Positions 9,699-40,169 of a stretch of DNA of 64,000 nt are shown here, in pieces (position 1 is the first letter of the stretch; each line of letters begins with the position of its first letter). This DNA comes from an uncultured bacterium. Lineage in GTDB: Bacteria; Bacillota; Clostridia; Oscillospirales; Oscillospiraceae. Where the stretch lies: assembly GCA_949840775.1 (NCBI GenBank), contig CATKXO010000008.1, forward strand, positions 1-64,000, given 5' to 3'. Below the pieces are notes generated by a model. That model did not search any database, was not told the DNA's origin, and was given only the letters and a program-made list of their open reading frames with translations. The translations under genes and the position numbers were made by a program.

Positions 9699-10075
9699 GA
9701 CTGTTCCTCCTCCGCCTTGCGCAGAATTTCGTAGAGCTCGTCAATCTCCGCCCTGGACAGGGCCTTGTCCTCCGCCAGGGCGGACACCATCAGCCCCACG
9801 CTGCCCCGGTAGACCTTATCCAGGAAGGAGCGGGTCTCCCCCCGGACGGCGTTCTCCCGCTGAACCGCCGGGGCATAGTGCTTTGTGCGGCCCTCCACGG
9901 TACACAGCACCAGCCCCTTGTCCTCCATCCGCCGCAGGGTGGTGATGGTGGTGCTCTTGGCCCAGCCCAGCCGGTCGTGGAGGGCGGCCACCAGCTCCAT
10001 CACCGTCTGGGGGGACCGTTCCCACAGGCAGTCCAGCACGTACCACTCGCTGTTGGTCAGGTTGATGTTGTCCAT
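9695..10075 (-). CDS. blaI: BlaI/MecI/CopY family repressor
   Basis: A 126-residue winged-helix repressor (LTNSEWYVLDCLW, AKSTTITTLRRMEDKGLV, HYAPAV). The C-terminal part carries the dimerisation helix cut by BlaR1-type proteases. AAAGGGG precedes the ATG. It is the first gene of a two-gene operon with the sensor protease, and dyads matching its expected operators lie upstream at 10178-10225. Confidence 0.93.
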   Translation of the reverse strand: MDNINLTNSEWYVLDCLWERSPQTVMELVAALHDRLGWAKSTTITTLRRMEDKGLVLCTVEGRTKHYAPAVQRENAVRGETRSFLDKVYRGSVGLMVSALAEDKALSRAEIDELYEILRKAEEEQS

Positions 10076-10100
10076 TGATTTTCCCCTTTCAGCTCCTGCC

Positions 10101-10167
10101 TGTGGAGCCCGCCCCCTTGGGCGGGCTGTTCCAGGGACATGACCCGCCGGAGGCGTCGGGTCCCACA
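10101..10167. repeat. REP-like two-armed palindromic element A
   Basis: TGTGG at one end and CCCACA at the other; left hairpin GCCCGCCCCCTTGGGCGGGC, right arm GACCCGCCGG...GGGTCCCACA. Confidence 0.65.
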
Positions 10168-10177
10168 GATTCCTTTG

Positions 10178-10225
10178 GTCTACTTTGTAGACCTATCATA
10201 TCACGGATGGTCTACAATGTCAACC
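10178..10225. promoter_or_regulatory. two BlaI-type operator dyads
   Basis: GTCTACTTTGTAGAC (10178-10192) is a perfect dyad, and GGTCTACAATGTCAACC (10209-10225) is a second, imperfect one with the TACA-NN-TGTA-like core known for BlaI/MecI. They lie between divergent blaI and the flavoprotein-rubredoxin gene and could control both. Confidence 0.65.
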
Positions 10226-10315
10226 AGAAAAATTTTCCGGATAGCCGGTGGACTTTTGGGAAAAACTGTGATAGACTGCTTGTATAGCACTTTAAACAAC
10301 AAAAAGGAGTTTTTT

Positions 10316-10936
10316 ATGGACAACAAGGTTATGTATTCCCTGAGCTACGGCCTGTTTGTACTCTCCGCTCGCCGGGGGGACAAGGACAACGGCTGCATCA
10401 CCAACACCGCCATCCAGGTGACCACCGAGCCCAACCGCATTGTGGTGGCCGTCAACAAGAGCAACTACACCCACGACATGGTGAAGGAGACGGGCCACTT
10501 CACCGTCTCCATCCTGTCGGAGGAGGCGAAGTTCGACCTGTTCCAGCGGTTCGGCTTCCAGTCAGGCCGGGATGTGGACAAGTTTGCTGGCTTTGAGGCC
10601 CACACCGGCAAGGACGGGGACGGCATCCCCTACGTCACCCAGGGGACCAACGCCTGGCTGAGTTGCAAGGTGGTGTCCGCCACCGACCTGGGCACCCACA
10701 CCCTCTTCCTGGCCGACGTGCTGGACGGCGGCGTCATCTCCTCCGTCCCCAGTGCCACCTACTCCTACTATCAGGCCCACATCAAGCCCAAGCCCGGCGC
10801 ATCTGTCGCCCCCAGTGAGAAAAAACGCTGGGTGTGCAAGGTCTGCGGATACGTCTACGAGGGGGACGAGCTGCCCGCCGATTATATCTGCCCTCTGTGC
10901 AAGCATCCCGCCTCCGACTTTGAGCCGCTGGCATAA
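10316..10936 (+). CDS. flavin reductase-rubredoxin fusion (high molecular weight rubredoxin)
   Basis: A 206-residue two-domain redox protein. Residues 1-155 form an FMN-binding flavin reductase-like domain ([20 protein letters not shown]-like [10 protein letters not shown]). Residues 170-206 form a rubredoxin with CKVCGY and CPLC iron ligands. This matches Hrb of Moorella, which passes NAD(P)H electrons to flavodiiron NO/O2 reductases; no flavodiiron protein lies in the window. AAAAAGGAG precedes the ATG. The BlaI dyads upstream suggest that the neighbouring repressor controls it. Confidence 0.88.
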
Positions 10937-27722: not shown

Positions 27723-28721
27723 TTACTCCTTGCTGTAGGCGGGGGTGTGGCAGGGGGTGTTCCACAGGCGAATAAATTCTTCGTCCCACTTGGCGATGTT
27801 CATCTGGAAGCCGCCGGCCTCCTGTACGGTGAGAATCTCGCCCACCATACTGGCCACAACCTCCACGTCCATGGCCTTCAGGAACTCCACGGTATCCTTG
27901 AACAGCACCAGCAGCTCCATCATAGTGGTGGCGCCGCAGCCGTTGATCATGACGAATGCTTTGTCCCCGGCCTTCAGCTCCAGGTTTTTGCACAGAGCTC
28001 CGGCCACGGTGGACACGGTGTCTTTGGCGGACATCATGGGCACCCGGACGCCGCCCCCCTCGCCATGCTGGCCGGCGCCAATTTCCATCAGGTTGGTCTC
28101 CCCCAGGTCACCGAAGGACATGCCGTTCTGGGGGTGGGTGGCGTCGGTGGACTTCACCGTGACGGAGGCCATGCTGTCGGCGTACCGCTGGGCGATGGCG
28201 GTCACCTCGTCCAGGCTCTTGCCCTCCCGGGCGGCGGCTGCTGCAATGTGGTACAGGGCGACGGCTCCGGCCAGGCCCCGCTTGTTGTCCTCACCGTTGG
28301 GGTCGTACTGAATCTCCTCTCCGGTGACCACCTGGCGGACGTTGAGCCCCGCCTTCTGGGCCAGCTTCATGGCCTGCTTGCCGGCCAGCTGGTCGCCGGC
28401 GTAGTTCAGGGTGAGCAGCAGCACCCCGTGGCCCTTGTCGGCCAGCTTCATGGCGTCAAACACCAGCTGGCCGTTGGGAGCGGCAAAGATGTCGCCCACC
28501 GCCTGGATATCCAGCATCCCCTTGCCCACAAAGCCGGCCTGGGCGGGCTCGTGGCCCGAGCCGCCGTAGGTGACAATGGTCACCCGGTCGGCGGAAGCAA
28601 GGTCCTTGCTGATGACCAGGTGGCCGTCCACGTCCAGAATGTCGGGGTAGGCCAGCCCCAGGCCGGTGAGCTCCTCGTCGGTGATGGTCTCCGGGGCGTT
28701 GATAAATTTCTTCATTTTCAT
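27723..28721 (-). CDS. dhaK: dihydroxyacetone kinase-type subunit DhaK
   Basis: A 332-residue DhaK domain protein. It has the substrate-site GGSGHEP motif, NYAGDQL (catalytic Asp of the family) and GAGQHGEGG, whose histidine forms a hemiaminal with the substrate carbonyl. The E. coli protein is 356 residues. GAGGAGG lies before the ATG. DhaK binds the ketose and DhaL supplies the nucleotide. The neighbouring aldolase suggests that the substrate may be another short ketose or deoxysugar instead of dihydroxyacetone. Confidence 0.88.
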   Translation of the reverse strand: MKMKKFINAPETITDEELTGLGLAYPDILDVDGHLVISKDLASADRVTIVTYGGSGHEPAQAGFVGKGMLDIQAVGDIFAAPNGQLVFDAMKLADKGHGVLLLTLNYAGDQLAGKQAMKLAQKAGLNVRQVVTGEEIQYDPNGEDNKRGLAGAVALYHIAAAAAREGKSLDEVTAIAQRYADSMASVTVKSTDATHPQNGMSFGDLGETNLMEIGAGQHGEGGGVRVPMMSAKDTVSTVAGALCKNLELKAGDKAFVMINGCGATTMMELLVLFKDTVEFLKAMDVEVVASMVGEILTVQEAGGFQMNIAKWDEEFIRLWNTPCHTPAYSKE

Positions 28722-28747
28722 GGTGTTGCCTCCTCAAAATTGTGGTG

Positions 28748-29356
28748 TCAGGGCTGTGCCAGACCCTGGAAAAAGTAGGACATGGACATGGCCCCGGCGT
28801 CCGGGGTGCCGATGGTCTTCTCTCCGTAGCTCCTGGCCCGCCCGAATTTGGATACAAATTGCTTGCTGGCCTCCGCTCCGTCCGCCGCAGCCCTGGCGGC
28901 AGCGGCAAACAGCTCGTTCTCGTCGCCGTCGGCATAGGCGGCAATGGCCTGGCTGGCGGGAATCAGGGCGTCCATCATGGTCTTGTCCCCCACCTTGGCC
29001 CCGGACATGTCGCTCAGCTCCTCCAGGGCCCTGGCAAAGACGGCCTGAATGCCCGCCACGCCGATCTCCTCCCCCTCCGGGGCCGCCTCCTGCATCCCGT
29101 CCAGCCAGGTGTTCCACAGGGGGACGGCGCTGCCGCCGTTCAGGGTCATCACCGCCATGGCCGCGTCGTCCAGCATGGACTGGATGCCTCCCGCCGACTG
29201 CTCCACCGCGTGGGCAATGGCCCTGGCAATTTTCGACATGGTCAGGCCGTGGTCGGCGTCCCCAAAGTGGGAGTCGATCTCTGTCAGCTCCGCCTCCGCC
29301 GCTGTGACGGCCTCGCATCCATGTTTCAGCCGGGCGGCAAATTCAGCTTTTGTCAT
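28748..29356 (-). CDS. dhaL: dihydroxyacetone kinase-type subunit DhaL
   Basis: A 202-residue nucleotide-binding DhaL. The Mg-ADP/ATP site DSHFGDADHG is near 28-37 and GDKTMMDALIPA lies further on. It is the first gene of the operon dhaL-dhaK-aldolase-VOC. No dhaM PTS subunit follows, so phosphate comes either from a DhaM elsewhere or directly from ATP, as in ATP-dependent members of the family. GGAGGAGG precedes the ATG. Confidence 0.88.
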   Translation of the reverse strand: MTKAEFAARLKHGCEAVTAAEAELTEIDSHFGDADHGLTMSKIARAIAHAVEQSAGGIQSMLDDAAMAVMTLNGGSAVPLWNTWLDGMQEAAPEGEEIGVAGIQAVFARALEELSDMSGAKVGDKTMMDALIPASQAIAAYADGDENELFAAAARAAADGAEASKQFVSKFGRARSYGEKTIGTPDAGAMSMSYFFQGLAQP

Positions 29357-29418
29357 TCGCGTTCACCTCCTCCCCTGTGTCGCCTGTAACATTTTTTACT
29401 GATCCCGTTATCCTCGAC

Positions 29419-29431
29419 TTACATATGTTAC
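29419..29431. promoter_or_regulatory. SorC-type operator in the dhaL promoter region
   Basis: TTACATATGTTAC lies just downstream of the dhaL -10 box and is identical to the site at 30546-30558 upstream of the SorC gene. Further TGTTACAT and TGTAACA half-sites lie near 29457 and 29385. Confidence 0.7.
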
Positions 29432-29443
29432 ATCTGTGTGTTT

Positions 29444-29472
29444 ATCATACCACCCTTTGTTACATGAGTCAA
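29444..29472 (-). promoter_or_regulatory. sigma-A promoter of the dhaL operon
   Basis: On the reverse strand TTGACT (29467-29472), 17 bases, TATGAT (29444-29449). The operator lies at about +6 to +18, which fits repression. Confidence 0.75.
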
Positions 29473-29540
29473 TTCAAAATTTTATTTCCACAAGGCCGAC
29501 AGAAATATATGTGGAAAATTGGCAAACCTGCACAAAAACA

Positions 29541-29574
29541 GACCTCCCAGACGGCCGGCGCCGTCTGGGAGGTT
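29541..29574 (-). terminator. terminator of the SorC gene
   Basis: Perfect 16-base dyad ACCTCCCAGACGGCCG / CGGCCGTCTGGGAGGT-like, followed on the reverse strand by CTGTTTTTG. Confidence 0.85.
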
Positions 29575-29585
29575 ACAAATATTAC

Positions 29586-30518
29586 TTATTGCTCCAGCAA
29601 TGTCTTAATCAGTTCCGACCGGGCCACGATGTGGGTAAAAAAGCCGGACTTTAGCGCGCCACGCAGAGCCTTGGCGCTGGTGTTGGCAGAGCAGACGCCG
29701 ATGATGTTGGGACAGCGCTTCAAGATATCAATGGGGATTTGAATGGCAAAGTCCTGCTCCGACTGGATGACAAAGCCGTCCTCGTTGAAGTAGTAGATCA
29801 GCATCCGCCCGCAGGCCCGCTGCTGCTGAAGCAGACTGCCGTATCGGACCAGCGAGGCGAAGTCGGGGCTGGAGGGGTAGTCCCCGATGTTGACCAGCGC
29901 CGTGTCCAGCTGCTCCCATTGATGATGGATTTGCCGGTAGACCTCCGTGGAGCACAGCACCTGCTTCTCCTCCAGGTTGTCCGGCAGGGCCGGGAGGTAG
30001 AGAAAATGGGGGGTGGCCCCCATCTGCTGGGCCATCAGGCGGACATTTTCGTTGGACTGGTAGTTGCGGGCGGGGATACTGGCGTTGCCCACCAGAGGGC
30101 AGATGTCGGTGATGGTGCTGTTGGGCTGGGGATTCTCCTCCAGCCAGGACACCAGCTGGCCGATGAGATAGCCCCAGCCCACCCCCAGCCGGCGGACGCC
30201 CAGCTGCCGCAGCAGCTCCACCGCCCCCTGGGACAGCAGACGGTTTGTGGCATCGTCATTCGTCCCCTCCGCCACCAGGATGCCCCCCCGGATGGAGCTG
30301 GATAATTTCAGCCGCTCCAGCAATTTGGTTTCCCGGGTCCCCGGCTCATGGATTGTGATCTCCACAATGCCCAGCTCCCGCGCCTCTGACAGCATTCGGC
30401 TGATCAGCGGGCGGGATACCCCCAGCTCCCGGGCAATATCGCTCTGCTTCTGGTCCTCAATGTAGTACCGATGCGCCACATGAGCCAGCCTTTTTTGTTT
30501 CTCCAGGTTAGTGTCCAC
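29586..30518 (-). CDS. SorC-family sugar-responsive transcription regulator
   Basis: A 310-residue regulator. The N-terminal helix-turn-helix is near 15-55 (YYIEDQKQSDIARELGVSRP). The C-terminal sugar-phosphate-binding domain covers 60-310 (GVRRLGVGWG, NIGVGGD-equivalent positions changed to ALVNIGDYPSS). LsrR and the deoxyribonucleoside regulator DeoR of Bacillus belong here. It starts with GTG after GGGGGATC. Identical operators before this gene and before dhaL indicate autoregulation and control of the dha operon. The inducer is probably a phosphorylated sugar made by DhaKL. Confidence 0.88.
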   Translation of the reverse strand: MDTNLEKQKRLAHVAHRYYIEDQKQSDIARELGVSRPLISRMLSEARELGIVEITIHEPGTRETKLLERLKLSSSIRGGILVAEGTNDDATNRLLSQGAVELLRQLGVRRLGVGWGYLIGQLVSWLEENPQPNSTITDICPLVGNASIPARNYQSNENVRLMAQQMGATPHFLYLPALPDNLEEKQVLCSTEVYRQIHHQWEQLDTALVNIGDYPSSPDFASLVRYGSLLQQQRACGRMLIYYFNEDGFVIQSEQDFAIQIPIDILKRCPNIIGVCSANTSAKALRGALKSGFFTHIVARSELIKTLLEQ

Positions 30519-30785: not shown

Positions 30786-32291
30786 ATGAGCGAAACCATT
30801 GTATCCATGCGGGGGATCTGCAAGAGCTTTCCCGGCGTCAAGGCCCTGGACCATGTGGACTTTGACCTGCGCTCCGGGGAGGTCATGGCCCTGCTGGGGG
30901 AGAACGGCGCAGGCAAAAGCACGCTGATGAAGGTGCTCAGCGGCGTGTACCAGCGGGACGAGGGCACCCTGGAAATTTTCGGGAAGCAGTACGGCGATCT
31001 GAACCCCAAGCTGGCCCAGGAGGTGGGCGTGGCCATCATTCACCAGGAGCTGAACATGTGCAAGCACCTGTCTGTGGCGGAAAATATGTTTTTAGGCAGG
31101 GAAAAGCGCAGGGGCATCAGGCTTGACAACGCCAGTATGGAAGCGGAGGCAAAGAGCATCCTGAACGAGCTGAAAATTGATTTGGACCCCAAACAGGTGG
31201 TGGGAGAGCTGCCTGTGTCCAAGCAGCAGATGGTGGAAATTGCCAAGGCCCTGTCCACCAATGCCAGGGTGCTGATTATGGACGAACCCACCTCCGCCCT
31301 CACCGCCCGGGAGATTGACGACCTGTTCCGCATCATCCAGGAGCTGAAGGCCAAGGGCTGCGGCATCGTGTATATCTCCCACCGGCTGGAGGAGCTGCAG
31401 CACATCGTGGACCGGGTGACCATCATGCGGGATGGCCAGTACATCACCAGTATGGACTTCAAGGATGTCACCCTGGACGAGATCATCGCCTACATGGTGG
31501 GCCGGGAGATCAAGGAGAAGTTCCCCCGGGTGGCCTGCGAGAAGGGCAAAAAGGTCTTCGAGGTAAGGGGGCTCAACGCCGGGCGCATGGTGCGGGACAT
31601 CGACTTCTCCCTGTATGAGGGGGAGATCGTGGGCTTCGCCGGGCTGATGGGCGCCGGGCGCACCGAGACCACCCGGGCCATTTTCGGCGTGGACCCCAAG
31701 GAGGGCGGGCAGATCATCCTGGACGGCAGAGAGGTGGCCATCAGGAACCCCAAGGACGCCATCCAGGCGGGCATTGTTTTGGCCCCGGAGGACCGGAAGA
31801 AGGACGGACTTTGTACCAAGCTGTCCATCCGCCACAACATCGCCCTGCCCAACCTGGACTTTCTGTGCAATCGGTTCGGCATGATCCGGTGGGGCAAAGA
31901 GGCCGAAACCTGCGATAAAACGGTGCAGAACCTGAAAATCAAGACCCCCAATGTGGAGATCAACGCGGCCAACCTCTCCGGAGGCAACCAGCAGAAGGTG
32001 GTGGTGGGCAAGTGGCTGGCCCGAAACTCCCGGGTCGTTATTTTCGACGAGCCCACCCGGGGCATCGACGTGGCGGCCAAGGTGGAGATTTACCACCTGA
32101 TGAACGACCTGAAAAAGCAGGGGATCGCCGTCATGTTCGTCTCCTCGGAGATGCCGGAGGTCATGGGCATTGCCGACCGCATCATCGTCATGTGCGACGG
32201 ACGGATTACCGGCGAGCTCATGGCGGAGGACGCCACCCAGGAGAAGATTCTCTCCCTGGCTACCCAGTTTGAGAAGAAAATTGCTGTTTAA
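30786..32291 (+). CDS. ribose-type sugar ABC transporter, double ATPase (RbsA-like)
   Basis: A 501-residue tandem ABC ATPase. The first domain is complete: Walker A GENGAGKST (38-46, K44), signature LPVSKQQ, Walker B VLIMDEPTSAL. The second has the degenerate GLMGAGRTE P-loop usual for RbsA but keeps NLSGGNQQK and VIFDEPTRGID. It energises sugar uptake with the permease and binding protein that follow. AGGAGG lies 14 bases before the ATG, a long spacing. A double ABC paralogue without any P-loop lies downstream at 37976. Confidence 0.93.
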   Translation: MSETIVSMRGICKSFPGVKALDHVDFDLRSGEVMALLGENGAGKSTLMKVLSGVYQRDEGTLEIFGKQYGDLNPKLAQEVGVAIIHQELNMCKHLSVAENMFLGREKRRGIRLDNASMEAEAKSILNELKIDLDPKQVVGELPVSKQQMVEIAKALSTNARVLIMDEPTSALTAREIDDLFRIIQELKAKGCGIVYISHRLEELQHIVDRVTIMRDGQYITSMDFKDVTLDEIIAYMVGREIKEKFPRVACEKGKKVFEVRGLNAGRMVRDIDFSLYEGEIVGFAGLMGAGRTETTRAIFGVDPKEGGQIILDGREVAIRNPKDAIQAGIVLAPEDRKKDGLCTKLSIRHNIALPNLDFLCNRFGMIRWGKEAETCDKTVQNLKIKTPNVEINAANLSGGNQQKVVVGKWLARNSRVVIFDEPTRGIDVAAKVEIYHLMNDLKKQGIAVMFVSSEMPEVMGIADRIIVMCDGRITGELMAEDATQEKILSLATQFEKKIAV

Positions 32292-32305: not shown

Positions 32306-33340
32306 ATGAACACGAAACCGAATCCCATAAAGCGCATCCTAAATACCCGGGGCATGGGCGGGGCGCTGACGGCCTTTGCCGGGCTGATTGTCATCTACAT
32401 CGCCTTCGGCATCATCAACCCCACTGTGTTCTCCGGGCAGAACATCATGAACCTGCTGCGGTCCATGTCCAAGTACCTGCTCATCGGCATCGGGCAGAGC
32501 TATATTCTGATTACCGGCAACATCGACCTGTCCATCGGCTCGGTGGCGGGCATGAGCGCCATGATTTCCGCCACCCTGATGACCATGGGGGTCCACCCCA
32601 TTGCCGCAATCCTGATTACGCTGGCCTGCTGCCTGGTCATCGGCGTGCTCAACGGCCTGCTGGTGGGCAAATGGCAGCTGCCCCCCTTCATCGCCACCTT
32701 GGGCACTATGTTTGTGGCCCGGGGCGTGGCCTACATCGTCAACGGCAACCGCAACACCGACGCCATTGCCTCCGGCATCGGCAAGGAGGCGGCCGACACC
32801 TTCGGCAATTTCTTCTACTACGGCTCCACACTGGGCATCTACAACACCTTCTGGATTGCCATCGCCCTGTTTGTGGTATTTTTCTTCCTGCTGTCCGGGA
32901 CCAGGACGGGCCGCCATATCTACGCCATCGGCTCCAACGTGGACGCGGCCAAGCTGTCCGGCGTCTCTGTGCTGGCCACCACCACCAAAGCCTATTTGGT
33001 CAGCGCCTTCTGCTCCTGCGTGGTGGGCCTGATCCTGTGCGGGCAGGCCGGCATGGGCAATATGGAGGCCGGCAACATGTATGAGATGTACGGCGTGGCC
33101 GCTGGCGTCATCGGCGGCGTGTCTCCCCTGGGCGGCACCGGTATCCTGCTGGGCACCCTGGCCGGCGCGGCGGTGTGGCAGACCCTGGAGAACGGCCTGA
33201 ACATGATCGGTGCCCAGGTGGGCATCCAGCGGCTGGTCATCGGCATCATTGTGGTGGTGGCTGTGTTCCTGGACGTGGTGGTCCGCAACGGTGCCCACAA
33301 GAAAAAGCCCGCCAAGACCGGCGCGGCCAAGACGAATTAG
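32306..33340 (+). CDS. ribose-type sugar ABC transporter permease (RbsC-like)
   Basis: A 344-residue permease with about ten membrane segments and the family sequence GNIDLSIGSVAGMSAM near 70-90, plus GVSPLGGTGILLGTL near 270. It should form a homodimer carrying sugar through the membrane. It starts 14 bases after the ATPase gene with AGGAGGG, and a lysine-rich tail (HKKKPAK) ends it. Confidence 0.93.
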   Translation: MNTKPNPIKRILNTRGMGGALTAFAGLIVIYIAFGIINPTVFSGQNIMNLLRSMSKYLLIGIGQSYILITGNIDLSIGSVAGMSAMISATLMTMGVHPIAAILITLACCLVIGVLNGLLVGKWQLPPFIATLGTMFVARGVAYIVNGNRNTDAIASGIGKEAADTFGNFFYYGSTLGIYNTFWIAIALFVVFFFLLSGTRTGRHIYAIGSNVDAAKLSGVSVLATTTKAYLVSAFCSCVVGLILCGQAGMGNMEAGNMYEMYGVAAGVIGGVSPLGGTGILLGTLAGAAVWQTLENGLNMIGAQVGIQRLVIGIIVVVAVFLDVVVRNGAHKKKPAKTGAAKTN

Positions 33341-33383: not shown

Positions 33384-35165
33384 ATGAAAAAACTCACAGC
33401 AGTTCTGTGCGCCGCCTGTCTGATGGTTACAGCTATGACGGGCTGTGCCAAGAAGAACGACCCCGGCCAGAGCGGAAGCTCTGACACCATGATCGCCCTG
33501 ATTACCATGGACTCCATCGATCAGCACTGGATTGCCCTGAACGAGGGCGCCCAGAAGGCGGCCAAGGAGCTGGGTGTCAATGTCCAGTTCATGTCCCCCA
33601 ACACCAAGGACGACGCCCAGCAGATTGAGTGCGTCAACAACGCCGTCAGCGCGGGCGCCAAGGCCATCATCGTGGCCGCCAACGGCCCGGACGCCATTTC
33701 CTCCGCCCTGAAGGAGGCCAAGGACAAGGGCGTGAAGATCGTCTACGTGGACTCCCCCGCCAACGTGGACGCCGAGGCCACCTTCTCTACCGACAACAAG
33801 GCCGCCGGCAAGACCGCCGGTGAGGAGATGCTCAAGGCGCTGAACGCCAAGGGCGTCAAGAGCGGCAAGGTGGGCATCATCAACGTAAACGCCGCCACCG
33901 ACTCCTGTGTGGCCCGGGAAGAGGGCTTCCGCTCCGCCTTTGAGGGCAGCGGCTTCGAGCTGCTGGAGACCCAGTACGGCGAGGGCGACGCCGCCAAGTC
34001 CCAGTCCATCGCGGAGAACTACATCACCCAGGGCGTAGTGGGCATCTTCGGCTGCAACGAGGGCTCCACCACCGGCGCGGGCAACGCCATCAAGGCCACC
34101 GGCAAGGCCGACATCGTTGGCGTGGGCTTCGATAAATCCGACGCCATCCTGGGCCTGATTGACGACGGCTATCTGCTGGCCACCATGGCTCAGAACCCCG
34201 ATGTCATGGGCTACGAGGGCGTGAAGGCCGCGGTCAAGGCCATCAACGGCGAGAGCCTGGGCGGCGCGGTCACCGACACCGGCGTGTCCGTCCTCACCAA
34301 GGAGGGCGGCTCCGCCGCCCCCGCCGGCACCACCGCCAGCCAGGAGTGGAAAATCGCCCTGATTACCATGGACTCCATCGACCAGCACTGGGTCACCCTG
34401 AACGAGGGCGCCCAGGCCAAGGCCAAGGAGCTGGGGGTCACCGTCACCTTCATGTCTCCCAACACCAAGGACGACGCCCAGCAGATCGAGTGCGTCAACA
34501 ACGCGGTGGCCGGCGGCTACAACGCCATTATGGTGGCTGCCAACGGCCCGGACGCCATCTCCTCCGCCCTGAAAGAGGCCCAGTCCAAGGGCGTGAAGAT
34601 CGTCTATGTGGACTCCCCCGCCAACGTGGACGCCGAAGCCACCTTCTCCACCGACAACAAGGCCGCCGGCAAGACCGCTGGCGAGGAGATGCTCAAGGCG
34701 CTGGACGCCAAGGGCGTCAAGAGCGGCAAGGTGGGTATCATCAACGTGAACGCCGCCACCGACTCCTGCGTGGCCCGTGAGGAGGGCTTCCGCTCCGCCT
34801 TTGAGGGCTCTGGCTTCGAGCTGCTGGAGACCCAGTACGGCGAGGGTGACGCCGCCAAGTCCCAGTCCATTGCCGAGAACTACATCACCCAGGGCGTGGT
34901 AGGCATCTTCGGCTGCAACGAGGGTTCCACCACCGGCGCGGGCAACGCCATCAAGGCCACCGGCAAGGCCGATATCATCGGCGTGGGCTTCGACAAGTCC
35001 GATGCCATCCAGGGCCTGATTGGCGACGGCTATCTGCTGGCCACCATGGCCCAGAACCCCGATGTCATGGGCTCCAGCGGCGTAGAGGCCTGTGTCCAGG
35101 CGCTGGAGGGCGCCGCCCTGAACGGTGCGGTCACCGACACCGGCGTGTCTGTGCTCACCAAGTAA
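33384..35165 (+). CDS. sugar-binding lipoprotein with two tandem, nearly identical binding domains
   Basis: A 593-residue lipoprotein. The signal ends in the lipobox MTGC (Cys near 20). Two complete type 1 periplasmic-binding domains follow (about 35-322 and 322-593), each starting IALITMDSIDQHW and ending GAVTDTGVSVLTK, repeating every 287 residues, with only scattered differences. A short EGGSAAPAGTTASQEW linker joins them. Normal RbsB proteins have one domain. Two linked sites may raise capture efficiency or let one protein serve both permease halves. Third gene of the importer operon. Confidence 0.93.
   Translation: MKKLTAVLCAACLMVTAMTGCAKKNDPGQSGSSDTMIALITMDSIDQHWIALNEGAQKAAKELGVNVQFMSPNTKDDAQQIECVNNAVSAGAKAIIVAANGPDAISSALKEAKDKGVKIVYVDSPANVDAEATFSTDNKAAGKTAGEEMLKALNAKGVKSGKVGIINVNAATDSCVAREEGFRSAFEGSGFELLETQYGEGDAAKSQSIAENYITQGVVGIFGCNEGSTTGAGNAIKATGKADIVGVGFDKSDAILGLIDDGYLLATMAQNPDVMGYEGVKAAVKAINGESLGGAVTDTGVSVLTKEGGSAAPAGTTASQEWKIALITMDSIDQHWVTLNEGAQAKAKELGVTVTFMSPNTKDDAQQIECVNNAVAGGYNAIMVAANGPDAISSALKEAQSKGVKIVYVDSPANVDAEATFSTDNKAAGKTAGEEMLKALDAKGVKSGKVGIINVNAATDSCVAREEGFRSAFEGSGFELLETQYGEGDAAKSQSIAENYITQGVVGIFGCNEGSTTGAGNAIKATGKADIIGVGFDKSDAIQGLIGDGYLLATMAQNPDVMGSSGVEACVQALEGAALNGAVTDTGVSVLTK
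33489..35162 (+). repeat. 861-bp in-frame tandem duplication within the binding-protein gene
   Basis: Position 33492 corresponds to 34353 and the register is kept to the end of the gene. Long stretches are identical at DNA level (for example around 33720-34130 against 34581-34990), which points to recent duplication or gene conversion. Confidence 0.9.
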
Positions 35166-35182: not shown

Positions 35183-35216
35183 CAACAGGAACGCCGGTTT
35201 TCCGGCGTTCCTGTTG
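35183..35216. terminator. hairpin after the binding-protein gene
   Basis: Perfect 15-base stem CAACAGGAACGCCGG / CCGGCGTTCCTGTTG with TTTT loop. The T run lies on the reverse-strand side, so on the forward strand it may attenuate or stabilise the mRNA end more than terminate it. Confidence 0.6.
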
Positions 35217-35242
35217 AAATTATCAAGACATCGTGATAAAGT
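35214..35242 (+). promoter_or_regulatory. possible promoter of the two-component operon
   Basis: TTGAAA, 17 bases, TAAAGT. The -35 box overlaps the foot of the preceding hairpin. Confidence 0.5.
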
Positions 35243-35318: not shown

Positions 35319-36896
35319 ATGTGGAAGGTTATTATCGCGGATGATGAAAAGTTGATCTGCCGGCTGATCGAGACGCTGATCGACTGGGAAACGCTGGACA
35401 TGGAGATCGTGGGCAAGGCGGAGAACGGGCTGGAGGCCCTCCGGATGGTGGAGGAGCTCCATCCCCACCTGCTGATTACCGACATCCGTATGCCGGGCTG
35501 TGACGGCCTGGAGCTGATCCGTCAGGCCCGGGAGCTCAGCCCGGACATTGAGATTGTCATTATCAGCGGCTACGCACACTTTGAATATGCCAAAACCGCC
35601 ATCGCCTACGGCGTGGGCAGCTATATCCTAAAGCCCGTCAACCAGGCGGAGCTGAACAAGACTCTGCAAAAAATTGTGCTCCGGTTGGAGGAGCGGGGCA
35701 AACGGGAGCGGACGGAGGAAGACCGGGAGAGCGGCCAGTCCGCGCCCCAGCGGCGCAGGGAGGAGCTGCTCCGGGACCTGTTGGAAGGAAAAAGGGAGTT
35801 TACCGAGGAAGAGCTGGCCGAAAGTTATCAGTTTCACATCTGCGGATGTCAGCTCCAGACCTTTTTCCTCAAGCTGGACTTGGACGGGGAGGAGTTGAGC
35901 AATCCGGCCCGGACCATCATCCGTCAGAAGGCGGAGGAGATGTTCCAGGCCACTGTACTGCCTTCCTGTACCGAAGGCGCGCTGTTTCTCCGGAACTTCG
36001 CGGGCTACGGCCTGCTCAGCTACCCGCCCGGGGAGCAGGACCGGGTGCGCCACAGCCTGCGGGAGCTGCTCAAGCAGCTGGAGGCCAACAAAAGCCTGTT
36101 TGGAAAAGTGGAGTTCACCATCGGCCTGGGCCGGCCCATTCAAGAGGTCCGGGAGCTGGCCGGCTCCATGAATACCGCCCGGCTGGCGGCGGAGGAGCGG
36201 CTGATCGAGGGCCGGGGCCGGATGCTGGAGGATGTGCCGCCCGATTCCAGCCTGCCCAAGCAGGCAATCCTGAACCGCTACACCAAGCTGGTGGACCACG
36301 GGATCGACATCATCGACGGGGACACCCTGCGCCTGGCCCGGGAGAGCCTGCGGGCCGGGGTGCTGGCTGTGTCCAGAGTACGCGGGCGGGAGATTTTTGA
36401 GCTGGTGCTGGATGCGGGAAAAATTTTTTCTCTTCGGGCGGGCAGCAGCGATGAGGCAGCCCAGGCATTTCAGCAGCGCTGCGGCCAGTGCGGGCGGACA
36501 GAGCTGCTGTTCCGGGAGCTGGAACAGCTCCACACCCAAGTGCTCCGGGAGCTGAAGGAGCGGCAGGAGAACGAAACCACCCGCCCCATCCGCATGGCAA
36601 AGCAGTTTGTTCAGGAAAACTACGGGCGGAACATCACCTTGGAGGATGTGTGCGGGGCCGTCGGCTTCAGCTCCACCTACTTCAGCGCCCTGTTCAAAAA
36701 AGAGACCGGGGAGGGCTTTTCCAAGTACCTGACCCAGGTGCGGATCGACCGGGCCAAGGAGCTGCTGCGGGAGACCGGACTGTCCGTGGCGGAGGTGTGC
36801 GAGGCGGTGGGCTACAGCGACCGGAAGCACTTCACCCAGACCTTTCACAAGATGACCGGCGTAAATCCGGCGGAGTTCCGCCGGCTCTACGGCTGA
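35319..36896 (+). CDS. YesN-type response regulator with AraC DNA-binding domain
   Basis: A 525-residue regulator. The receiver (1-120) has D8/D9 and phosphoacceptor D55 (LLITDIRMPG) and ends KPVNQAEL. A long middle region (about 130-415) links to two AraC helix-turn-helix units (about 425-525; ITLEDVCGAVGFSSTYFSALFKK, SVAEVCEAVGYSDRKHFTQTF split). This class activates sugar transporter genes in Firmicutes. ATG 35319 follows GGGAGTG. Next gene: its kinase, 12 bases away. Confidence 0.93.
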   Translation: MWKVIIADDEKLICRLIETLIDWETLDMEIVGKAENGLEALRMVEELHPHLLITDIRMPGCDGLELIRQARELSPDIEIVIISGYAHFEYAKTAIAYGVGSYILKPVNQAELNKTLQKIVLRLEERGKRERTEEDRESGQSAPQRRREELLRDLLEGKREFTEEELAESYQFHICGCQLQTFFLKLDLDGEELSNPARTIIRQKAEEMFQATVLPSCTEGALFLRNFAGYGLLSYPPGEQDRVRHSLRELLKQLEANKSLFGKVEFTIGLGRPIQEVRELAGSMNTARLAAEERLIEGRGRMLEDVPPDSSLPKQAILNRYTKLVDHGIDIIDGDTLRLARESLRAGVLAVSRVRGREIFELVLDAGKIFSLRAGSSDEAAQAFQQRCGQCGRTELLFRELEQLHTQVLRELKERQENETTRPIRMAKQFVQENYGRNITLEDVCGAVGFSSTYFSALFKKETGEGFSKYLTQVRIDRAKELLRETGLSVAEVCEAVGYSDRKHFTQTFHKMTGVNPAEFRRLYG

Positions 36897-36908: not shown

Positions 36909-37967
36909 ATGAAAAACGACAGGTTGCGATATTTGTCCCACCGGCTCCTGGCCGCGGGCCTGACGGCCGTCCTGCTCCATCTCTGCCTGCTGCTCTTCCT
37001 CTGCGCGGCGGCGAAGGACCTGGGCGGGCGCTGGTGGGAGCTGGCCGCCATGGGGGCGGCGGGACTGCTCCTTTTGGTGTGTTGGACCACAGTGTGGATC
37101 ATCCGGCCGTTTCTCCGGCTGGAAAAGGAGACCCGGCTGTTTTTGGAGGGGCACGCTCCGAATGGCCTGCTGCGGGAGGAACATGTCTTCTTTACCCCCG
37201 CCGGCCGTCAGACCTGGGAGTGCCTGCAGGGGCTGCTGGACTCCTCAGAGCTGATGAAGATGAACAAGCGGCAGGCCCAGTACCTGGCCCTGCAAAACCA
37301 GATCAACCCCCATTTCCTCTACAACACCCTGGAGAGCATCCGAAGCGAGGCCCTGATTGCGGGACTGACCGGTCTGGCGGAGATGACGGAGGCCTTAGCC
37401 AGCTTCTTCCGCTATACCATCAGCAAAGTGGAGAATCTGGTGTCGGTGGAGGAGGAGCTGCAAAACTGCGAGACCTATTTCAAGATTCAACAGTACCGCT
37501 TTGCGGAGCGCCTCCAGCTCACCGTCGAATGTGACAGCGCAGAGCGGGAGGAAATTTACAACTGCCGCCTGCCCAAGCTGAGTATGCAGCCCATTTTGGA
37601 AAACAGCATCATCCATGGCACCGAGTGTAAAATCGGCACCGGGCACCTGAAAATCCATCTGGAGCGGACGGGCAAGCTGCTGCTCATCCGAATCTCCGAC
37701 GACGGGGTGGGGATGGATGAGCAGACCCTGGCCAGAATGAATGGACAGCTGCAAAAAAAAGTCCGGGCCGCCGCGTCTCAGGACGGCCAGACCCAGGGCG
37801 GCATTGCCCTGCGCAACGTGAACAACCGGATCCAGCTGCTGTTTGGAGAGGAATACGGCCTGCGGGTGTTTTCCATGCCCGGGGTGGGAACCGATGTGGA
37901 GATTCTGCTGCCGGCTATCACCAGCGACAGGGATGTCCCCAATAAGGAGGCGCTGCGCTCCCTGTAG
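36909..37967 (+). CDS. YesM/LytS-type histidine kinase lacking an extracellular sensor domain
   Basis: A 352-residue kinase. Two membrane helices (about 11-35 and 44-66) are separated by only about eight residues, where YesM kinases usually carry a 200-300 residue extracellular domain. A short linker leads to the His_kinase domain with H135 in NQINPHFLYNTLE and to an ATPase domain (about 240-340; SMQPILENSIIHG, DDGVGM, GIALRNVNNRI). Its signal must come through the membrane or a partner; the dead ABC protein encoded next is the best candidate (inference). Confidence 0.9.
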   Translation: MKNDRLRYLSHRLLAAGLTAVLLHLCLLLFLCAAAKDLGGRWWELAAMGAAGLLLLVCWTTVWIIRPFLRLEKETRLFLEGHAPNGLLREEHVFFTPAGRQTWECLQGLLDSSELMKMNKRQAQYLALQNQINPHFLYNTLESIRSEALIAGLTGLAEMTEALASFFRYTISKVENLVSVEEELQNCETYFKIQQYRFAERLQLTVECDSAEREEIYNCRLPKLSMQPILENSIIHGTECKIGTGHLKIHLERTGKLLLIRISDDGVGMDEQTLARMNGQLQKKVRAAASQDGQTQGGIALRNVNNRIQLLFGEEYGLRVFSMPGVGTDVEILLPAITSDRDVPNKEALRSL

Positions 37968-37975
37968 GAGGGTAT

Positions 37976-39505
37976 ATGCGAAACGAGATACTGCGAATGG
38001 ATCAGGTGACCTATGAGACCCAGGGCGTCACCCAGCTGGACAATTTCAGCCTGTCGGTGTGGGAGGGGGAAATTTTGGGGCTGGTCCCCGTGAACAACTG
38101 GGGGGTAGAGGCCCTGCTCTCTCTGCTGACCCAAAACCTTCCCCTGCGGTATGGATATGTTCATTACAACGAAAGGCTGGTAAATGACTGGCACAGCCAC
38201 CGCAGAGGGGGAAACCGGGTCAGCGTGATTCGGAATGAGAGCTGTCTGGCCAAGGACCTGACGGTGGCTGACAACATCTTTGTCCTGCGTCCGGGGTTCA
38301 AAAAATGGCACATCCGCCCCCGTATCCTCCGGGAGCAGCTGACCCCCTTTATCCAGGAGGTGGGTGTCCCCATCCGGGCGGACGCCTATATCGACAGCCT
38401 GACCACCTTTCAGCGGTTTGTGGTGGAGCTGCTAAAGGCGGTAGTGGCAGGCAGCCGGCTGATCGTGCTGGAAAACGCGGATGCCTTCATCAGTGAGAGC
38501 GAGCTGGCCAAGCTCCAGGAGATTTTACTGCACTACGCCGGTAAGGGCATCTCCTTTCTCTACCTCTCCGCCCATTTTGAGGAAACCCTGCGCTTCTGTC
38601 ACCGGACGGCCCTGATGTCCAATGGACGCATCTTAAAATGCTTTGACCTGAAAAGCGGCAGCGCGGATATCCTGTCCCTGCCCTGTGTGGGGGACTACGA
38701 CCGCTGGATCCGGGCCCATCTGGAGGAGCCGGTCCGGGAGCAGGCAGACAGGCCCATGCTGGAGCTGCGCGCCCTGTGCTGCGGGAACCTCCAGGATGTA
38801 GACCTGCGGGTAAATGCCGGGGAGTGTATCGTGGTGCAGGATACGGACGGCTGCGCTCTGAGCGACTTTCTCGCCGTTTTAGCGCGCGGGCAGCCGGAAA
38901 GCGGGCAGCTTTTGGTGGGGGGAAGGCCCCTGCGCTCCGGTCTGGACCGGAGCATTGCCATTGTCCAGGAGCGGCCTACAGAAACCATGCTGTTTTACAG
39001 CATGAGCTATATGGACAATCTGTGCTTCAATATGGATCACCGTTTCCCGAAAATCTGGCTGTCAAAGGGGATTCGCAGGAGCATCCGGGAGGAGTATGCC
39101 CCCCTTCTGGGGGCGGAAGTCTTTGACAGACGAATCAATGAACTGACCAACCGGCAGAAATATGATCTGGTGTATACCAGGCTGCTGCTTCAGCGGCCCA
39201 AGGTGGTGTTCTGCATCCATCCCTTCAAGAAGGCGGAGGTATCTATCCGAAGCCATCTGTGGGAGCTGATAGAGCGGCTTTTGGAGCGGGATATTGCGGT
39301 GGTAATCCTTGCGGTAAACCTGGCCGACTCGCTGGCCCTTGCGGACCGGCTGGTCCGCCTGCGGAAGGGGGCGGTCCACGAGGTCTACCGGCGTGAGGAC
39401 TTCACACGGCTGCCCGCCAATACTCCGTGGCTGTATCTCTACCGGGAAAAATATTCAAATATGGAAAGAAAGGTCGATATGTATGAAACGTTCCGAAATC
39501 AATAA
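37976..39505 (+). CDS. double ABC ATPase-like protein with both nucleotide sites lost (pseudo-ATPase)
   Basis: A 509-residue homologue of RbsA-type double ATPases. The first half has GLVPVNNWGVEALL (about 35-48) in place of GxNGAGKST, SLTTFQ in place of the signature, VLENAD in place of DEPT, but keeps the H-loop histidine (H200, YLSAHFEE). The second half has VVQDTDGCALSDFL (286-299) and FCIHPF (412-417) at the Walker sites. It cannot bind ATP normally. The reading frame is intact and has AGGAGG, and it lies eight bases after the kinase gene, so it is a working gene. A signalling or transporter-contact role is inferred. Confidence 0.85.
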   Translation: MRNEILRMDQVTYETQGVTQLDNFSLSVWEGEILGLVPVNNWGVEALLSLLTQNLPLRYGYVHYNERLVNDWHSHRRGGNRVSVIRNESCLAKDLTVADNIFVLRPGFKKWHIRPRILREQLTPFIQEVGVPIRADAYIDSLTTFQRFVVELLKAVVAGSRLIVLENADAFISESELAKLQEILLHYAGKGISFLYLSAHFEETLRFCHRTALMSNGRILKCFDLKSGSADILSLPCVGDYDRWIRAHLEEPVREQADRPMLELRALCCGNLQDVDLRVNAGECIVVQDTDGCALSDFLAVLARGQPESGQLLVGGRPLRSGLDRSIAIVQERPTETMLFYSMSYMDNLCFNMDHRFPKIWLSKGIRRSIREEYAPLLGAEVFDRRINELTNRQKYDLVYTRLLLQRPKVVFCIHPFKKAEVSIRSHLWELIERLLERDIAVVILAVNLADSLALADRLVRLRKGAVHEVYRREDFTRLPANTPWLYLYREKYSNMERKVDMYETFRNQ

Positions 39506-40169
39506 GGCGCTCAAGGAGCTGGAGGCCATGTGTGTCCAATACCGCTTTGCCCTGCCGCCCTTCTGCCATTTCACTCCGGAGCAGTGGAAGGAACTGGGAC
39601 ACGAGTACGACGAGGTCCGGGACTGTATGCTGGGCTGGGACATCACCGACTACGGCAAGGGGGACTTTGACCGCTTCGGCTTTTCCCTGATCACCATCCG
39701 CAACGGCAACCGGGCCATGGCGGACAAGTACCCCAAGGTGTACGCCGAGAAGCTGCTCTATCTGAAGGAGGGCCAGTATGCCCCCAACCACTTCCACTGG
39801 TATAAGACCGAGGACATTATCAACCGGGGCGGCGGGAACGTGCTCATCCGGGTGTACAACTCCCTGCCCGACGAGGAGATTGACTACAGCTCCGACGTGA
39901 CCGTCCATACCGATGGGCGCACCTACACCGTCCCCGCAGGAACCCAGGTGCGGCTCACGCCCGGGGAGAGCATCCACATCCAGCAGAGGCTGTACCACGA
40001 CTTCTCCGTGGAGGAGGGGTCCGGCCCTGTCCTGCTGGGCGAGGTGAGCCAGTGCAACGACGACAACACGGATAACCGCTTCAACCCGCCTGTGGGCCGC
40101 TTCCCCGCCATTGAGGAGGACGAGCCCCCCTATCGTTTACTGTGCAACGAGTACCCGCCGGCCCAATGA
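39483..40169 (+). CDS. D-lyxose isomerase (D-lyxose ketol-isomerase family)
   Basis: A 228-residue cupin enzyme converting D-lyxose and D-xylulose (and D-mannose and fructose) in known members. The metal-site motif PNHFHWYKTEDIINRGGGN is present, with H103, H105 and E110, and a later histidine in QQRLYHDFS. The start codon lies 23 bases inside the preceding pseudo-ATPase gene, with AAAGG as ribosome site, so the two are coupled. It gives the best hint at the sugar imported by this cluster: a lyxose- or mannose-like aldose. Confidence 0.88.
   Translation: MKRSEINKALKELEAMCVQYRFALPPFCHFTPEQWKELGHEYDEVRDCMLGWDITDYGKGDFDRFGFSLITIRNGNRAMADKYPKVYAEKLLYLKEGQYAPNHFHWYKTEDIINRGGGNVLIRVYNSLPDEEIDYSSDVTVHTDGRTYTVPAGTQVRLTPGESIHIQQRLYHDFSVEEGSGPVLLGEVSQCNDDNTDNRFNPPVGRFPAIEEDEPPYRLLCNEYPPAQ

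Follow-up and report, generated by a model that had tools for sequence, protein, structure and literature searches.

Among the proteins that link transport to two-component signalling, PhoU is not an ABC protein, and UhpC is a relative of a transporter. Within the sections of the published accounts cited here, the intramembrane-sensing kinase of the BceAB–BceS/BceR system is fed by an ABC transporter and the two-component genes lie beside the transporter genes (PMC10314905); in PstSCAB–PhoU–PhoR, the importer signals to the kinase via an extra linker protein (PMC6978683); in UhpC–UhpB–UhpA, UhpC is the signalling partner of the kinase (PMC4790336); and in CuaDSR and XylFII–LytS, a sugar-responsive kinase and a regulator act with a third protein that comes from an ABC importer (PMC10384115). 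Judging from these sections, importer-to-kinase signalling and three-component systems with a binding protein are already known. Fused double ABC proteins with a degenerate site, namely RbsA and NupO, appear in the cited part of a further report, in which the second ATP site of B. subtilis RbsA is described as degenerate (PMC11466899).

The locus considered here lies in a 64,000-nucleotide stretch of DNA (the whole of which is hereafter called the window) and resembles these systems in part. As in BceAB–BceS, its kinase has two membrane helices with almost no outer loop and is encoded beside transporter genes, so that the parallel drawn in a preliminary description of this DNA appears fair as an idea; however, in the cited account of BceAB–BceS, it is the transporter's own active ATPase that takes part, with the permease BceB, whereas here a BPD_transp_2 RbsC-type permease and a binding protein are accompanied by an extra dead double ATPase encoded behind the kinase. 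In comparison with PhoU, the would-be linker appears to be an ABC ATPase fold without activity. UhpC is, according to its cited account, an integral membrane protein, whereas the protein considered here is related to a cytosolic motor subunit. The third protein of CuaDSR and XylFII–LytS, as far as the cited section describes it, is an outer binding protein that reads the kinase ectodomain, whereas in the present system no ectodomain is recognisable in the kinase and a cytosolic ATPase relative takes the place of the binding protein. Finally, RbsA is described in the cited part of its report as having one working composite site and driving transport, whereas the family described below, for which the name pseudo-RbsA is used, has none in canonical form. 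Among the papers listed in searches of open-licence PMC, none described an RbsA relative without catalytic function as the partner of a two-component system. The explanation towards which we lean, taken as a whole, is that pseudo-RbsA is not a motor but a signalling subunit that replaces the missing sensor of the kinase, is bound to the kinase and responds to the importer.

On the plus strand of the window, the importer is encoded by genes for an RbsA-type ATPase (30786..32291), an RbsC-type permease (32306..33340) and a substrate-binding protein with two RbsB-type domains fused in tandem (33384..35165), the halves of which are 88% alike as protein and 89% alike as DNA. At other loci of the family, the binding protein is either fused (~590–627 aa) or single (~296–340 aa). 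The importer genes are separated from the regulatory genes by a 15-bp stem (35183..35216, plus strand), in which a T-run is present on the minus strand alone, followed by a promoter-like match (35214–35242); both are consensus matches only, and a separate promoter for the regulatory genes may lie in the 35183–35242 region. There follow, on the same strand, the genes of a YesN-type response regulator with a receiver and an AraC-type DNA-binding domain (35319..36896), a YesM-type histidine kinase of 352 aa, the partner of pseudo-RbsA (36909..37967), pseudo-RbsA itself, a fused double ABC domain protein of 509 aa without a canonical ATP site (37976..39505), and a D-lyxose/D-mannose isomerase (39483..40169), spaced by 12 nt, 8 nt and a 23-nt overlap, respectively. 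The pseudo-RbsA gene starts with ATG, and its AGGAGGG ribosome site overlaps the stop codon of the kinase gene. The preliminary description had pointed to an open 509-codon frame with a ribosome site, to its position between a sensor kinase and a sugar isomerase, and to an active RbsA-type importer upstream; the first two were found as described, and the importer ATPase of the window has intact catalytic motifs, which is consistent with the third. Divergent from the operon, on the minus strand (27723–30518), lie DhaK- and DhaL-like genes and a SorC-type regulator gene, named from the look of their translations alone.

The fold and length of RbsA, which the preliminary description had ascribed to the protein, were borne out by profile and structure prediction. 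The window pseudo-RbsA has the fused double ABC fold of ~500 aa of RbsA-type importer ATPases; the AraG, xylose and RbsA models of NCBIfam match it over the full length with E-values of 6e-34 to 1e-31, far below the cut-offs, and its AlphaFold model has a pLDDT of 90.5 and a pTM of 0.85. Its identity to the RbsA of the window is 21% over 492 columns. In structure comparison with Foldseek and VIA-align, the best full-length matches were fused ATPases of the DppD and OppD types; the matches listed included no RbsA-type structure, which does not imply absence from the databases, and a PDB sequence search with the window RbsA gave no RbsA-type structure in the best 60 of 92 matches.

Alignment to RbsA confirmed the replacements of the catalytic motifs quoted earlier. 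In the first nucleotide-binding domain (NBD1), Walker A GENGAGKST is replaced by PVNNWGVEA (residues 37–46, 38084..38113, plus strand) and Walker B MDEPT by LENAD (residues 162–170, 38459..38485, plus strand); the signature LSGGNQQ is replaced by LTNRQKY, and Walker B of NBD2, FDEPT, by CIHPF (FCIHPF, 39209..39226, plus strand). The window copy has neither the Walker A Lys nor the Walker B Asp-Glu. The first H-loop histidine, which was said to remain, does not: RbsA YISHRLEE aligns with YLSAHFEE, with Ala in the H-loop column and His one residue later. The canonical ATP site, composed of Walker A and B of NBD1, the LSGG of NBD2, the Q-loop and the H-loop, is absent from the window protein by this alignment. 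The claim that both ATP sites had been lost holds in that no canonical site is left, but not in its count, because ordinary RbsA has just one canonical site (its NBD2 Walker A carries Arg in all 58 sequences compared); thus, the loss concerns a single working site, and the other, already degenerate by nature, was eroded further.

A profile of eight orthologues, run against one genome per species of GTDB r220, yielded 71 loci, of which L108, L109, L111 and L112 were left out (21–23% matches, ordinary RbsA or short), and the other 67, mostly from Clostridia, were treated as family loci. Their record labels include Lachnospiraceae, Oscillospiraceae, Christensenella, Thermoanaerobacterales, Clostridium and others, with Halanaerobiales once (L107, doubtful). 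Since near copies are included (L042/L043, L091/L094 and L103/L106), counts of loci are not counts of independent events, and Fisher values calculated from them exaggerate the certainty. Among whole genomes sampled, the family was present in 4 of 394 from the order (E ≤ 2e-204), in 13 of 391 from the class and in 7 of 398 from the phylum (E ≤ 4e-163), of which five lie outside the class; the following eight matches in the phylum sample (E ≥ 2e-70) were RbsA with intact motifs. The E cuts applied to the class sample (1e-80 and 1e-90) were picked after earlier searches were seen. A mobile-element or phage gene was considered and rejected: a scan of viral_contigs gave a single 15-residue match (L041), and a scan of the same set with a second family alignment gave none. 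On plasmids, 2050 records were matched, all at <60% identity (25–27% among the ten matches listed), and were taken as ordinary RbsA relatives.

The motif losses extend to the whole family. In 68 family sequences (a count that omits L057, L083 and L096, both pieces of L101, and L089), the second LSGG and the H-loop His were each found in 0/68, compared with 58/58 RbsA sequences in each case, and the column next to the H-loop position holds His in 66 of the 68. The Walker A Lys of site 1 is kept in 19 sequences, three of which also keep Ser/Thr, and the first Walker B Asp-Glu in nine; the full-length copy of L089 follows the same pattern. Relatives that might have kept their P-loops therefore have no working site in any of the 68 cases, and the usual hydrolysis mechanism is ruled out for all of them on sequence grounds, while nucleotide binding would be possible in the subset that keeps parts of site 1. 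The recurrence of identical replacements across the whole family is more than chance. Pfam ABC_tran is still matched by 53 of the 53 members scanned, and automatic annotation would probably list the family as sugar ABC transporter ATP-binding proteins. The same matches are what could be said for a normal RbsA that still works via an unusual site, an explanation to which we attach a negligible probability in view of the 0/68 counts for the second LSGG and the H-loop and of the window copy, with its Walker A Lys and Walker B Asp-Glu gone.

In a quick tree of 78 sequences with SH-aLRT support, the 34 family sequences and the 18 cognate RbsA sequences were each split off by a branch with support of 100; the 26 other RbsA sequences came from 30 control loci filtered by length and a GKST or GKT motif. 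A recent copy of the cognate RbsA was rejected in view of these two separate clades. L104 and L107, in which GKT is kept in the first half, form the deepest branches and look like earlier stages of the family. The membership of L107 (73–1551, Halanaerobiales-labelled) is doubtful, because it keeps this motif, lies at a contig end and falls on the RbsA side under midpoint rooting.

According to dN/dS (NG86) between the window copy and its two nearest relatives, pseudo-RbsA (0.23 and 0.16) evolves like the signalling genes (kinase, 0.24 and 0.18; regulator, 0.21 and 0.22) and unlike the importer (RbsA, 0.09 and 0.06). A further twelve close pairs from other parts of the family gave 0.05–0.15, and a thirteenth was saturated, so that pseudo-RbsA spans 0.05–0.23 over 15 pairs and the family is under purifying selection. 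The mean –ln identity over 43 loci was 0.84 for pseudo-RbsA, 0.83 for the regulator, 0.64 for the kinase and 0.26–0.36 for the importer genes. Frequent stop codons or relaxed selection in relatives, the outcomes that would have told against a maintained protein, were not seen: three copies in all have broken frames, namely L057 (the same as G003), G025, which is among relatives outside the 67 loci, and L101, the pseudo-RbsA of which is in two pieces; in L075, pseudo-RbsA stops ~45 residues early. An RbsA duplicate decaying towards loss would account for the missing catalytic motifs and for the three broken copies, but the family forms its own clade (support 100) that is not nested in cognate RbsA, its dN/dS resembles that of the kinase and the regulator, and it occurs outside the class of the window as well. 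A decaying pseudogene was rejected on dN/dS, clade and spread, and the probability left to this explanation is very small.

A kinase gene ends within 400 nt upstream of pseudo-RbsA in 63 of the 67 loci, with a gap of –41 to 333 nt that is exactly –4 nt in 36 of the 63. The four loci without a countable upstream kinase are the damaged L057, in which the kinase is present but run into the pseudo-RbsA gene, and the contig-end loci L083, L096 and L107, in which pseudo-RbsA starts 434, 9 and 73 nt from the contig end, respectively. The regulator adjoins the kinase in 61 of the 63, the exceptions being L089 and L104 (the latter near the end of its contig). An upstream position of the cognate RbsA was seen in 33 of the 67 loci (in L089, as a fragment) and a downstream one in 16; in 18 loci, it was not found in the fetched stretch, which is often cut off by contig ends. 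In the class sample, 12 of the 13 family genes stand behind a kinase, and in the five new members from the phylum sample, the order is regulator–kinase–pseudo-RbsA–RbsA in all. No partner-type kinase was found by 46 loci with RbsA-like best matches or by eight further ones, within flanks of up to 1.5 kb. HAMP or Cache kinases were seen one or two genes from ordinary RbsA in G000 and G082 (L212 and L213), two hand-picked cases in which both genes had turned up in searches. The earlier picture of a pseudo-ATPase that is kept by selection and linked to both a kinase and a ribose-type importer agrees with the family-wide motif loss, the purifying selection and the shared neighbours.

Two loci bear on a signalling role in opposite directions. 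In G785, the exception in the class sample, pseudo-RbsA lies beside an ileS-like gene (L209, 8115–9569), and the regulator–kinase–RbsABC genes are together elsewhere (L208); that the unlinked gene was kept with them counts for such a role. In L089, an intact pseudo-RbsA gene is found with a truncated kinase, the sole one among the 63, with an RbsA fragment and with no close RbsC found, which counts against it. The L089 stretch (7825–10524), in which the N-terminal piece of RbsA is followed by the truncated kinase and the intact pseudo-RbsA, represents a deletion or an assembly join.

The window kinase contains the His_kinase (PF06580) and HATPase_c domains and, with its receiver and AraC-type domain regulator, is of the YesMN type. 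An extracytoplasmic Cache sensor domain is usual in YesM kinases. Neither HAMP nor dCache_1 was found in the four partner kinases scanned in Pfam, whereas three others, taken from the 60 weaker kinase matches described below, had HAMP in 3/3 and dCache_1 in 2/3. The membrane part of the window kinase is a two-helix hairpin with an outer loop of 14 residues by hydropathy versus 4 by AlphaFold (helices 9–37 and 42–79 with 4 residues between them, pLDDT 80.9); by hydropathy, 56 of 64 partner kinases have two membrane segments 2–19 residues apart, and the remaining eight have one or no segment above the threshold. Among 71 matches to the window kinase listed from 99 related genomes, the 11 best (E ≤ 5e-86) are all linked to pseudo-RbsA; the other 60 (E ≥ 2.6e-43) have open frames of 407–995 aa and align from residue 35–121 onward, mainly over the cytoplasmic half. 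These sequences set the partner kinases apart as a short class of their own, anchored by a membrane hairpin; since no outer sensor is recognisable, this class needs another input. This need, and the fact that the tight gene coupling is to the kinase and not to RbsA or RbsC, argue against pseudo-RbsA as a competitive brake that would keep RbsA off RbsC and slow transport without playing any role in signalling; its homology to RbsA and its conserved docking region would suit such a brake, which we regard as quite improbable.

RbsC of the importer clade (E ≤ 1e-90) was found in 14 of the 391 class genomes, including 13 of the 13 with the family (the lone extra is G726); this co-occurrence is not independent of linkage, because the genes are adjacent in most of those genomes. 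Among 99 relatives, RbsC (E ≤ 1e-60) was found in 10 genomes, the family in 10 and both in eight, and this looser link to the importer counts against a signalling subunit that depends on it. G013 and G053 have RbsC at 55–56% and the lyxose isomerase without the regulator–kinase–pseudo-RbsA triplet and likely represent a state without the sensing module; G001 (a 4.8-kb contig in an 85% complete genome) and the damaged G003 have the family without RbsC. Of nine genomes that were searched because their loci had no cognate RbsA in view or looked odd, six hold RbsC of the same clade (78–84%) on another contig, and in L110, the best RbsC match in the genome is 34%.

These data bear on a rival explanation in which pseudo-RbsA replaces RbsA on the RbsC dimer, so that part of the importers would no longer transport but serve as a receptor (binding protein–RbsC2–pseudo-RbsA) read by the kinase. 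The importer clade in 13/13 family genomes of the class sample fits it, as does G003 (L057), with its damaged triplet and no close RbsC found; the genome of L089 gave no close RbsC either, and the regulatory genes are damaged in both. Against it stand L058 and L061, the triplets of which are importer-free in the fetched stretch, with a close RbsC on another contig; this absence is no mere contig break, because other genes occupy the upstream stretch. Taking these points together with the conservation and correlation data given below, we consider the RbsC-docked receptor rather unlikely, although the strongest of the rivals.

A lyxose/mannose isomerase gene lies near 18 of the 67 family loci, and ROK kinases, phosphomannose isomerase, a GH92 protein, an FGGY kinase and a GH3 protein were seen at family loci chosen by eye; the substrate would be mannose-, fructose- or lyxose-like. 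In L110 (7879–10452), a distant member with its kinase and regulator lies beside a GH3 gene and a different RbsA–RbsC importer, which suggests re-use of the module for another sugar.

In ABC proteins, the coupling helix of the permease is received just past the Q-loop. Among 14 preset segments of pseudo-RbsA (overall mean 2.25 bits; L057, L083, L096, both L101 pieces, L104 and L107 omitted), the most conserved were residues 91–108, just past the ex-Q-loop of NBD1 (3.20 bits; 38246..38299, plus strand), in the region where ABC proteins have their docking groove, and their counterpart in NBD2, residues 339–353 (3.05 bits; 38990..39034, plus strand). Residues 409–420 around the ex-Walker B of NBD2, in their new form, follow closely (3.02 bits); conservation is thus not restricted to the docking stretches, which counts against a docked signalling subunit. 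Residues 91–108 are also among the most RbsA-like parts (shared probability of 0.35 versus 0.18 overall), as expected of a protein docked on RbsC, whereas the NBD2 stretch 339–353 is conserved in the family yet unlike RbsA (shared 0.21), which speaks against docking on RbsC. Residues conserved in the family and absent from RbsA, such as His200, Cys208, Cys284, Cys350 and Trp485, could instead belong to a cytosolic ligand sensor, in which a sugar phosphate or nucleotide bound to the ABC fold would control the kinase regardless of transport; the subset with a kept Walker A Lys or Walker B Asp-Glu would also suit it, but the close co-occurrence with one importer clade does not, nor was a ligand pocket identified, and we hold such a sensor to be improbable.

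Partial correlations of distances over 43 loci were 0.52 for pseudo-RbsA and the kinase, 0.26 for pseudo-RbsA and the regulator, 0.05 for pseudo-RbsA and RbsA, and –0.06 for pseudo-RbsA and RbsC, while that of the kinase and RbsC was 0.26. In clade 1 alone (30 loci), the values shift, with 0.37 for pseudo-RbsA and the binding protein and –0.26 for pseudo-RbsA and RbsC; correlations with RbsC that are close to zero or negative are a further point against the RbsC-docked receptor. Joint exchange or adjacency of neighbouring genes may be the source of such correlations. In residue covariation over 62 kinase–pseudo-RbsA pairs (effective number, 40), the top pairs crowd into a few clade-marking columns, for example, kinase 238. 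Taken at face value, the correlations favour a putative chain of binding protein–RbsC–kinase–pseudo-RbsA, and docking of pseudo-RbsA on the kinase is favoured over docking on the permease.

We conclude that the two-component system encoded here is coupled to a transporter and has in pseudo-RbsA a conserved third component. As a signalling subunit, it would stand in for the missing sensor of the kinase by binding the kinase dimer, most likely via two conserved docking grooves, with one in each ABC half; a single fused double ABC protein would thus sit under two kinase subunits as RbsA does under two RbsC. Binding protein loaded with sugar and the importer would alter the state of the kinase–pseudo-RbsA complex, either through membrane contact between RbsC and the kinase hairpin or through exchange of pseudo-RbsA between RbsC and the kinase; the kinase would then drive the YesN-type regulator, and the importer and sugar genes would be switched on. 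More tentatively, the kinase dimer might mimic the permease dimer, the grooves of pseudo-RbsA docking on the membrane-proximal helices of two kinase subunits. On that reading, a dead ABC motor could conceivably be the co-receptor of a sensor-less histidine kinase, in a new class of complex, although we would not give this even odds.

Family loci were found in named strains and not just in metagenomes, so that the system is directly testable. The annotation of a widespread family as sugar ABC ATP-binding proteins would be corrected. If the proposed role is true, the known means by which importers signal to two-component systems would come to include a pseudo-ATPase, and the signal input of a class of kinases without an outer sensor would be explained.
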